Below, piece after piece: positions 30,258 through 47,336 of a stretch of DNA of 64,000 bases (within the stretch, counting starts at the first letter, position 1; every line of letters starts with the position of its first letter). Made by a program: the position numbers and the translations under genes. The stretch lies in contig NZ_KQ033871.1 of NCBI RefSeq assembly GCF_000967195.1, positions 1,175,828 to 1,239,827 on the forward strand, read 5' to 3'. The notes beneath the pieces were generated by a model. That model was not told the DNA's origin. It did not search any database and saw only the letters and a program-made list of their open reading frames with translations. The stretch is from Lactobacillus kullabergensis. Lineage in GTDB: Bacteria > Bacillota > Bacilli > Lactobacillales > Lactobacillaceae.

Positions 30258-30355
30258 CCAAAATTTACTTAGACTCGCCAATCGAGGTGCTCCGTAAAAG
30301 ACTTATTACCCCGAAATGTGCGGTTGCAGATGTGGAGGAACCCACAAATACAACT
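30258..30355 (-). promoter_or_regulatory. L21-leader-like structured 5' UTR of rplU
   Basis: Between the predicted start of transcription and the rplU SD, the minus strand is GC-richer than its surroundings. It can form a GTGG/CCAC hairpin, a central CGCACATTTCGGGG element and a CTCG/CGAG hairpin. The placement and size match the L21 leader found before rplU in Firmicutes, believed to mediate feedback by L21. The family assignment is from context and general appearance; a covariance-model search would settle it. Confidence 0.6.
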
Positions 30356-34801: not shown

Positions 34802-34875
34802 GGTCTGGTAGCTCAGCTGGATAGAGCAACGGTCTTCTAAACCGTGGGTCGTGGGTTCGAATCTCACCCGGATCA
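34802..34875 (+). tRNA. tRNA-Arg (anticodon UCU)
   Basis: Full cloverleaf. The acceptor stem GGTCTGG/CCGGATC (two G-T pairs) is followed by the D arm GCTC...GAGC. The anticodon stem ACGGT/ACCGT has loop CTTCTAA, giving anticodon TCT for AGA codons. The T arm is GTGGG-TTCGAAT-CTCAC and the discriminator base A. The 3' CCA is not encoded (the sequence continues TTTTT), so it must be added by the CCA-adding enzyme. It is a single gene with its own promoter and terminator. Confidence 0.96.
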
Positions 34876-35663: not shown

Positions 35664-35692
35664 TTGCTTTTTTTATGCTATTAAGTTATGAT
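35664..35692 (+). promoter_or_regulatory. Predicted promoter of the leader-peptide/EIIC-like transcript
   Basis: -35 TTGCTT (35664-35669), 17-nt spacer, -10 TATGAT (35687-35692). Transcription would start near 35699, leaving a leader of about 230 nt before the transporter ATG. Confidence 0.72.
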
Positions 35693-35723
35693 ATTGCTTA
35701 AATATTTATGAGAGGTAAAGATT

Positions 35724-35795
35724 ATGACGGCAATTAAAAAAATTAATCAACCGCAAGTTAAATATTATTTCTGGTACTTCAGCTATTTGATCTGA
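35724..35795 (+). CDS. Leader peptide rich in aromatic residues (23 aa)
   Basis: A short ORF of 23 codons ending in TGA. The peptide is MTAIKKINQPQVK followed by YYFWYFSYLI, with seven aromatic residues among eight at positions 14-21 (Tyr, Tyr, Phe, Trp, Tyr, Phe, then Ser, Tyr). AGAGG lies about 9 nt before the ATG. It lies between a promoter and a terminator hairpin upstream of the EIIC-like gene, the layout of a transcription-attenuation leader. Ribosome stalling at Tyr/Phe/Trp codons is the likely signal. No protein function is expected. Confidence 0.72.
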   Translation: MTAIKKINQPQVKYYFWYFSYLI

Positions 35796-35819
35796 GTGCC
35801 TAGTTTGTCATTGTCTTAG

Positions 35820-35918
35820 ACACACAGTTCAATCTTCATGACAATTGTGTGTTTAAAAGATTTAAGTACTTTCTTCTCTGAAGACTCACACAGTTGTCGT
35901 CATCTGTGTGAGTTTTTT
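35820..35918 (+). promoter_or_regulatory. Predicted transcription attenuator before the EIIC-like gene
   Basis: Hairpin 1: ACACACAGTT (35820-35829) pairs with AATTGTGTGT (35843-35852). Hairpin 2: ACTCACACAG (35884-35893) pairs with CTGTGTGAGT (35904-35913) followed by TTTTT, an intrinsic terminator. The 5' arms of both hairpins share CACACAGTT, so the 3' arm of hairpin 1 could pair instead with the 5' arm of hairpin 2 and prevent termination. Leader codons 18-20 (TACTTCAG) can also pair with CTGAAG at 35878-35883. The exact switch is inferred, not shown. Confidence 0.68.
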
Positions 35919-35932
35919 ATTGGGAGAGTAAA

Positions 35933-36970
35933 ATGAATACTTTAAAAAAGATTACGTTAGATACACTAAATGGCTTATCAACAGGTATAGTTGTAGCTTT
36001 AATTCCTGGAGCCTTAATTAATCAGTTGGTAAAAGCACTCTTGCCAAGCATGCCACAATTAAGCTTTATTTTAGCTTTGACCACCTTTGCTTCGGCATTA
36101 TTGCCAGCAATCAGTGCCGTCTGTGTTGGTATGACTGGTAAATTAACACCCATCCAAACTTCATCTATTGCCTTAGCGGCAACAGCTGGAGCTGGTAACT
36201 TTGTGATGAACAAAGGCAAGGTTGCGGTTATGGGCAGTGGTGACGTTATTAATACGGCCATTACTATTATGATAGCTTACGGCTTAGTTTTGTTTTTTGG
36301 TAAGAAATTGAAAGCATACACAATTCTATTAGTTCCATTACTTGTTCTGCTAATAGCTGGAGGAATTGGCTGTCTTACCCGCATCCCTGTTGGCCAATTA
36401 ACTAGTTTGATCGGTGTCGGAGTTGAAAAATTGACGGCATTGCAGCCAATTATTATGGGTATGCTGATGGGAATAGTATTTGGGTTACTTATCGTTTCCC
36501 CTATTTCTTCAGTCGGTATTGCCACCGCGATAAGCATTTCTGGCATAGCTTCCGGTTCTGCCAATTTAGGTATCACAGCCGTTGCTTTCTCTTTAGCTGT
36601 TTTCGGTTGGAAATCAAATAGTTTTGGTACATCAATTGCCCACTTCTTAGGTTCTCCTAAAATGCAAATGGCTAATCTAATGACTAATCCCAAATTACTT
36701 ATCCCGCTTTTAATTAATGCCGGTATAATGGGTGCCTTAGGCGCAGTATTTCAAATTCAGGGTACACCAATGAGTGCAGGATTTGGCTTTTCAGGTTTAA
36801 TTGGCCCTATTGCCGCCATGGCAAATCGCCCAGCGAATTTGGTTAATATTATATTAATTGCTGTTCTTTTCTTCGTGTTACCTATTGCATTAGGCATCGC
36901 AATGAATTACCTTTTTAATAACAAAGTTCATCTTTTCACTAGTAAAGACTTTGAACTGGATTTCAGTTAG
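35933..36970 (+). CDS. EIIC-like membrane transporter (PTS_EIIC_2 family)
   Basis: 345 aa, almost entirely hydrophobic, with about 8-10 membrane segments. Family-like stretches include GIVVALIPGALINQLV, PIQTSSIALAATAGAG, LLIVSPISSVGIA and IQGTPMSAGFGFSGLIGP. It matches the stand-alone membrane family usually labelled PTS sugar transporter subunit IIC. No IIA or IIB gene is nearby, so PTS function and sugar substrate are doubtful. GGGAGAG lies about 5 nt before the ATG. The leader peptide and attenuator upstream suggest the substrate or its role relates to aromatic amino acids or their precursors. No terminator follows directly. Confidence 0.82.
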   Translation: MNTLKKITLDTLNGLSTGIVVALIPGALINQLVKALLPSMPQLSFILALTTFASALLPAISAVCVGMTGKLTPIQTSSIALAATAGAGNFVMNKGKVAVMGSGDVINTAITIMIAYGLVLFFGKKLKAYTILLVPLLVLLIAGGIGCLTRIPVGQLTSLIGVGVEKLTALQPIIMGMLMGIVFGLLIVSPISSVGIATAISISGIASGSANLGITAVAFSLAVFGWKSNSFGTSIAHFLGSPKMQMANLMTNPKLLIPLLINAGIMGALGAVFQIQGTPMSAGFGFSGLIGPIAAMANRPANLVNIILIAVLFFVLPIALGIAMNYLFNNKVHLFTSKDFELDFS

Positions 36971-47202: not shown

Positions 47203-47230
47203 TTTTTTCTCCTATAGTACATTGCCCATG

Positions 47231-47314
47231 AAAAAAGCACTTAATCTATTTGAGACTAAATGCTTTGTAAAAGTCAATACTTAATTGAGCTTTCCTTGCT
47301 AGCCTCACGGGACT
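47231..47314 (-). promoter_or_regulatory. PyrR-dependent attenuator before pyrR
   Basis: The minus strand holds AGTCCCGTGAGGCT (47301-47314), a full match to the PyrR binding consensus. A terminator with a 13-bp stem follows (AAGCATTTAGTCT/AGATTAAGTGCTT, two wobbles) and a T-run ending near 47231. Confidence 0.88.
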
Positions 47315-47336
47315 AATTTTAAAGGACATCTGTTTA

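Follow-up and report, generated by a model that had tools for sequence, protein, structure and literature searches.

What controls the expression of a lone membrane protein gene of Lactobacillus kullabergensis that is preceded by a short ORF rich in aromatic codons, and what does its product carry? The gene (35933..36970, + strand) lies in the 64,000-nucleotide stretch of DNA that was analysed here, hereafter the window, which comes from a 2.1 Mb Lactobacillus genome. Its 345 aa product belongs to the PTS_EIIC_2 family (EIIC_2), as indicated by its match to the PF13303 profile (E 1.9e-89; 300.4 bits compared to a gathering cut-off of 28.9). The evidence presented below indicates that this gene is very probably controlled by a ribosome-mediated transcription attenuator that responds when charged tRNAs for the aromatic amino acids (Tyr, Phe, Trp) run short.

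The leader, entirely on the + strand, begins with a promoter-like site (35664..35692) made of TTGCTT (35664-35669), 17 nt and TATGAT (35687-35692). This site has eight of the 12 consensus bases, which is under the cut-off of the consensus scan, hence its absence from the list of that scan; the leaders of relatives show a similar promoter arrangement, as judged by eye. It is followed by a Shine-Dalgarno-like (SD) sequence, GAGAGG (35710..35715), and by a 23-codon ORF encoding MTAIKKINQPQVKYYFWYFSYLI (35724..35795, stop codon TGA at 35793-35795), identified from the sequence and from the aromatic leaders of relatives. Codons 14-21 of this ORF encode YYFWYFSY, and codons 14-19 (Tyr Tyr Phe Trp Tyr Phe, 35763..35780), at which aromatic codons are kept in relatives, are the putative regulatory codons. 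In the MFE fold, a first hairpin spans 35813-35861. A second one (35884-35913), followed by T's, was found both by folding and by a dedicated terminator search; it was not among the results of a simple terminator scan of the window. Sequence and fold therefore bear out the original prediction for the promoter, the SD, the ORF with its aromatic run and the two hairpins, the second of which is a terminator. A short translatable ORF with an SD ahead of a terminator, as expected for an attenuator, is found in the window and in its relatives. The transporter gene has its own SD-like sequence (GGGAGAG, 35922..35928). The whole leader folds better than all of its 200 shuffles (z -4.43). Furthermore, the window carries two SD-preceded short ORFs with at least six aromatic residues per eight, compared to 0.2 on average when the window was dinucleotide-shuffled 20 times (at least seven: 1 compared to 0.05; at least five: 3 compared to 0.95). 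Besides the leader ORF, the other one with six of eight is located at 1991 (+) and encodes SFYIGFFYYLP.

The side-by-side reading of the leaders revealed five helices, A:C, B:D, D:E, E:F and F:G, the last one being the terminator. Segment A (GGTACTT, 35773..35779) lies within the aromatic codons, and their conserved partner is the stretch located directly 3′ of the stop codon, segment C (GAGTGCC, 35794..35800); this helix is present in the MFE fold and was counted in the alignment. Segment B (TTGATCTGAGTG, 35787..35798), which overlaps C, includes the last codons and the stop codon and pairs with segment D (CACACAGTTCAA, 35821..35832). Segment D can alternatively pair with segment E (GACAATTGTGTG, 35840..35851), and E with segment F (ACTCACACAGTTGTC, 35884..35898), forming a 12 bp antiterminator. 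Segment F is also the 5′ arm of the terminator, whose 3′ arm with its T run is segment G (35902..35918). Segment B was delineated by the shuffle, swap and covariation tests and by the MFE fold of the stalled state, D by the shuffle and covariation tests, E by the shuffle and swap tests and the fold, F by the fold, the terminator search and the shuffle test, and G by the fold and the terminator search. As had been noticed originally, the 5′ arms of the two hairpins share CACACAGTT (at 35821 and 35887), codons 18-20 can pair next to the terminator, and a mutually exclusive pairing is possible, since GACAATTGTGTG (35840-35851) can form 12 bp with CACACAGTTGTC (35887-35898). The exclusive pairing thus stands, but the switch comprises five helices in relay, not a single pair of exclusive helices.

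The relay was evaluated on 60 leaders, L087 having been dropped from an initial set of 61 because the script saw no terminator in it; the terminators of L012, L014, L015, L022 and L061 were set by hand. Compared to 200 dinucleotide shuffles, the mean z of these leaders was -1.85 for B:D, -3.03 for D:E and -3.05 for E:F, with z < -1 in 70%, 95% and 92% of them, respectively. In the leader of the window, the pairing of B with D is weak (z -1.2). As a guard against shared ancestry, partners were swapped between genera, using 42 leaders from 18 genera (thinned by hand from the 60 by removing close relatives) and a Wilcoxon test over genera. The native partner beats the foreign one (p 5e-5 for B:D and 4e-6 for E:F). 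B:D fails this stop-anchored test in the genus groups g9 (Bombilactobacillus; mean z +0.89) and g17 (+0.04); the failure in g9 is due in part to the ORF of several members passing B, so that the stop anchor misplaces this segment.

Covariation was examined in an alignment of 19 of the leaders. Standard pairs are found in 93.6% of the cells of A:C and D:E taken together (88.4% for A:C, 98.0% for D:E), and these helices show 23 double-sided changes compared to 6.8 in shuffles, a count that none of 500 shuffles reached. For B:D, standard pairs amount to 84.6%, with 11 double-sided changes compared to 5.0 in shuffles (0 of 500 as high), and two of the five covariation measures are unexceptional (doubly changed pairs, equalled in 141 of 500 shuffles, and pair types, in 68 of 500). 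It should be emphasized that all these counts lean towards the helices, since the helices were chosen on the same sequences. The original prediction had proposed covarying stems in relatives as a check: compensatory changes are indeed present in A:C, B:D and D:E. The leaders therefore have the mutually exclusive, covarying helices of an attenuator, with a weaker signal for B:D.

The same check called for a conserved aromatic run. A search with the transporter identified homologues at 95 places in 94 of the 301 genomes of the family, 74 of which were examined (30 first loci, L001 and L016-L044, 40 further fetched ones and four more) and 21 left out. Of these 74 places, 60 have an aromatic leader ahead of the gene or of the operon to which it belongs; two of the 60 (L038 and L044) are counted from covariance-model matches and two others (L049 and L076, the latter read by eye) are weak. 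The 14 examined places where no aromatic leader was found are L028/L091, L032/L095, L048, L058, L060, L062, L064, L065, L066, L069-L072 and L080. The run varies extensively (among others YYFWYF, YYFRYF, FWFWFF, YYFGYF, FYFYFAWY, YYYFWFF, RYYFWFF and FYFKYF). All 59 distinct peptides contain Phe, 57 Tyr, 44 Trp and 42 all three. The leader ORFs of Bombilactobacillus type (L014, L015 and L022) extend beyond the usual stop, through B and C, and the final position of the ribosome therefore differs in them. In the genome of the window, R1, the covariance model described below, gave a single match at E up to 0.05. A second leader was rejected in this genome: among the pattern matches listed, the sole other run with a mid TGG is out of frame in a gene, which we read as a putative pantothenate kinase gene.

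Could the aromatic run have arisen as the by-product of RNA pairing, with a U-rich arm binding an A-rich segment? The pairing of A with C in 88% of the cells of the 19-leader alignment would fit such an origin. However, the 39 distinct 18-mers of the run show a three-base periodicity: T occupies the first codon position in 90%, TTY (TTT/TTC) codons number 95 compared to two TTR (TTA/TTG), and aromatic codons amount to 5.36 per six in frame compared to 1.46 and 1.38 in the other frames, a comparison that favours frame 0 since the run was selected in frame. For these reasons, the run appears to be kept as codons and not as mere U-rich RNA, and the by-product explanation, largely refuted by the periodicity and the TTY bias, is very improbable. 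The leaders thus carry a run of codons for the sensed amino acids, maintained as codons.

The response of the relay to the position of the ribosome was modelled with transcripts whose 3′ end lies in the terminator loop; the ribosome was taken to cover the RNA as far as 13 nt beyond the start of the A-site codon, and the model concerns thermodynamics rather than kinetics. Leaders were thinned by hand from the 60, to 42 in an earlier run and 48 in a later one. In the 48 leaders, upstream RNA holds arm F with a mean probability of 0.67-0.71 when the ribosome occupies one of the first five run codons (0.71 at the third), compared to 0.52 five codons ahead of the run (about 0.53 at three to eight) and 0.49 at the stop codon. 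The difference between stall and stop is 0.22, compared to 0.02 once the middle of the relay is shuffled (p 2e-6), and that between stall and upstream is 0.19, compared to 0.02 (p 0.001); the effect thus vanishes with shuffling. In the 42-leader run, a ribosome at the first aromatic codon gave a stronger hold on F than one at the stop in 35 of 42 leaders (not in seven), and a stronger hold than no ribosome in 32 of 42. The leaders of aro, transketolase (tkt) and prephenate-dehydratase-like (PDT-like) genes described below, which are independent of the forming of the idea, behave similarly: in 21 of the 24 loci (L145, L152 and L165 being omitted), values are 0.65 on the run, 0.52 upstream and 0.49 at the stop, the run exceeding upstream in 20 of 21 and the stop in 15 of 21 (not in six).

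In the leader of the window itself, the modelled contrast is modest and uneven: the hold on F is 0.76-0.81 with the ribosome at codons 15-18, drops to 0.50 (codon 19) and 0.35 (codon 20), returns to 0.74-0.75 over codons 21-23, and is 0.56 both at the stop and without ribosome. With the A site at codon 16, the predicted fold of the stalled state consists of B:D and E:F. At equilibrium, as long as G is still to be transcribed, the most favourable fold is E:F, and a ribosome at the stop codon does not change this; termination in the window must therefore rely on D:E forming first. Overall, the model supports the view that stalling at the run would keep the terminator from forming.

The anatomy of the leader, its conservation, its covariation and its modelled thermodynamic response to ribosome position are results of this work; from them we infer stalling, read-through and their trigger as follows. 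In the free leader RNA, segment B would be hidden in helix A:C, and with a ribosome at the stop codon it would be hidden under this ribosome. As long as B is hidden, D would pair with E and the terminator F:G would form. A ribosome stalled on the aromatic codons would break A:C and leave B free to take D; E would then be released and would take F, making the terminator impossible, and EIIC_2 would be transcribed.

The covariance model R1, based on helices A:C and D:E and built from 19 of the leaders, was used for finding the element elsewhere. It matches 87 of the 301 genomes of the family (E up to 0.05) and, in the wide searches, whose stricter filters lost weak matches, 22 of 246 genomes of the order (E up to 0.01), including 16 outside the family, and three of 299 genomes of the class (the genome of the window, a member of the order and L186, rejected as a false match). 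Forty R1 places were chosen by hand and fetched; of the 16 matched genomes that lie outside the family, 11 are represented among them. The first recognisable gene, according to enzyme names that rest on one or two representatives each and on tblastn to these, encodes an aminotransferase (n = 13), a shikimate dehydrogenase (n = 8), a transketolase (n = 6), a small PDT-like protein (n = 6), a DAHP synthase (n = 4) or none of the nine query proteins (n = 3). Aromatic genes thus follow the element in 37 of these 40 hand-chosen loci, among them all 11 located outside the family. L151, L155 and L158, in which no aromatic gene was found, were taken as chance matches. The searches themselves gave 36 loci (L106-L141), a set that overlaps the former; in 35 of these, a gene for an aminotransferase, EIIC_2 or a shikimate dehydrogenase lies downstream, and L123 ends too soon.

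The element precedes, within Lactobacillales, aroE in shikimate operons (L142, L147, L150, L162, L166, L167, L170 and L181), DAHP synthase genes (L143, L152, L161 and L168) and transketolase genes (L144, L145, L148, L149, L154 and L157), and an aromatic leader precedes the gene of the small PDT-like protein in L153, L163, L164, L165, L171 and L172. The latter protein, of 183 and 191 aa in the two cases scanned, shows a weak PF00800 match below the cut-off; its gene is followed by those of DAHP synthase and AroB in L163, L164, L171 and L172, and the fetched stretches of L153 and L165 gave no further match beyond it. Aromatic leader peptides are readable before most fetched genes (YYYYWFFK, FYYYWFMK, YYFSYFR and others). 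The recurrence of the element ahead of aromatic amino acid genes strengthens the attenuation reading: for the class as a whole (37 of 40 loci), the genes under control serve the metabolism of the amino acids sensed, and, since R1 finds the element before aromatic genes in Lactobacillales, the leader of the window appears to be one member of a regulon of attenuators responding to aromatic starvation.

These loci also bear on the possibility that the leader encodes an arrest peptide of the TnaC or erm type, which would sense a free aromatic compound or a drug and not a shortage of charged tRNA. Within the six residues before the run, QLN is found in 21 and LN in 25 of the 59 distinct peptides, and leader peptides sensing drugs are reported to occur in Firmicutes (PMC8274638, PMC10314930). 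However, the run is built of differing combinations of F, Y and W interspersed with T, R, N, L, G and other residues, Trp is missing from 15 of the 59 peptides, and aromatic amino acid genes are present at the further loci that have the element, which makes an arrest peptide improbable. QLN is also present in several aro leaders; it may be inherited or be an aid to stalling.

T-boxes and TRAP are the usual aromatic regulators of Firmicutes. Here, the translated and covarying relay accounts for the leader, and a T-box was rejected in the window, across which Rfam RF00230 gave no covariance match. Neither was any T-box found in 20 EIIC_2 loci, for which at most 1.5 kb upstream was covered, so that the leaders of longer operons were missed; a single one was detected among 20 further loci, downstream of aroB. 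A TRAP-bound leader consists of about eleven spaced GAG/UAG repeats. A T-box, TRAP or other ligand-binding leader is most improbable, and ribosome-mediated attenuation remains our reading. At none of the loci scanned (41 sources) was the element covered by an Rfam family. In the window, Rfam scanning also revealed a ribosomal protein L21 leader (30261-30335, -), a tRNA gene (34802-34875, +) and a PyrR binding site (47228-47329, -).

What EIIC_2 carries has to be deduced from its company. The protein of the window gave no match in NCBIfam; among solved structures, the best hit by sequence (E 0.025) was judged to be chance, and no IIA or IIB was found among the three neighbour genes scanned. We found no description of the substrate of the PF13303 family in the open literature searched. 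The best segments of the protein are 99-100% identical to proteins of, among others, L. kimbladii, L. laiwuensis and L. huangpiensis, which we take to be of honey-bee origin. The genome of the window carries a second EIIC_2 homologue (L002, C2:726998-728026; 35% identity); the short ORF ahead of it lacks an aromatic run. The EIIC_2 gene is alone in the Lactobacillus and Bombilactobacillus loci. Elsewhere, it is preceded by genes of an aminotransferase and a D-2-hydroxyacid dehydrogenase at no fewer than 30 of the 74 places and of the aminotransferase alone at no fewer than 11, both being lower bounds given upstream stretches of 0.7-4 kb. The aminotransferase is closest to model PRK07309, with a score just under its cut-off, and is presumably specific for aromatic substrates, as the older name of this model suggests. 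The dehydrogenase was assigned to Pfam 2-Hacid_dh and scored below the NCBIfam cut-offs. In the genome of the window, three homologues of the aminotransferase (44-50% identity) are present elsewhere, none with an R1 match, and DAHP synthase model TIGR01361 gave no match.

Based on operon company, regulon membership and this absence of a TIGR01361 match, EIIC_2 most likely imports aromatic amino acids or their 2-oxo or 2-hydroxy acids. An importer is the simplest reading for a starvation-induced gene in a genome without a TIGR01361-type DAHP synthase, and the operon partners put the oxo and hydroxy acids slightly ahead of the amino acids. The same partners are usually discussed as making phenyllactate from phenylalanine, and their presence upstream would equally suit an attenuator that is real but controls an exporter of aromatic hydroxy acids of the phenyllactate type, or a carrier of non-aromatic compounds. 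Induction by starvation suits the supply of amino acids better than disposal, and, like the lack of a TIGR01361 match, it makes such a role rather unlikely.

We tentatively propose, as a possibility somewhat short of an even chance, that homologous Tyr/Phe/Trp leader relays run the aromatic supply regulon of Lactobacillales and, together with this, that EIIC_2 is a starvation-induced importer of aromatic 2-hydroxy and 2-oxo acids for salvage. The regulon would then comprise shikimate operons, transketolase, aminotransferase, hydroxyacid dehydrogenase and EIIC_2; the co-transcribed enzymes would turn the imported acids back into amino acids, so that the so-called phenyllactate enzymes would serve salvage. 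The relay class offers a testable regulon for lactic acid bacteria, with leaders mostly carrying codons of all three aromatic amino acids, suggests a role for the EIIC_2 transporter family and opens a new view of the enzymes interconverting aromatic amino acids and hydroxy acids.

In enterobacteria, the control of amino acid genes by leader-peptide attenuation is textbook knowledge, whereas Firmicutes are taught as users of T-boxes and TRAP. The original prediction regarded such attenuation as unusual in Firmicutes, which is fair, but His leader peptides were already predicted there in 2010 and 2022 (PMC2965389, PMC9413887). According to the consulted parts of these two accounts, the His leaders likewise represent regular leader-peptide attenuation where T-boxes are usual; they concern histidine and other lineages, and aromatic leaders are absent from these parts. 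In 2021, attenuation of DAHP synthase at Phe codons was proposed for the uORFC-13-1 motif found before aroF in Acholeplasma (PMC8632094); as far as the consulted part of this source describes it, the motif has 24 representatives with at least one Phe codon in another group of organisms. Ribosome-mediated attenuation itself is known, whereas no aromatic leader-peptide attenuator of Lactobacillales was found described in the open papers searched. Its closest relatives in design are the his, trp and phe leaders of enterobacteria, which likewise have a translated leader peptide with a run of regulatory codons matching the pathway and a chain of mutually exclusive helices leading to the terminator, the chain of the his leader being the most alike. 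Compared to them, the leaders of Lactobacillales mix Tyr, Phe and mostly Trp codons in a single peptide, the aromatic codons themselves build the first protecting helix, A:C, and the target in the window is a transporter.
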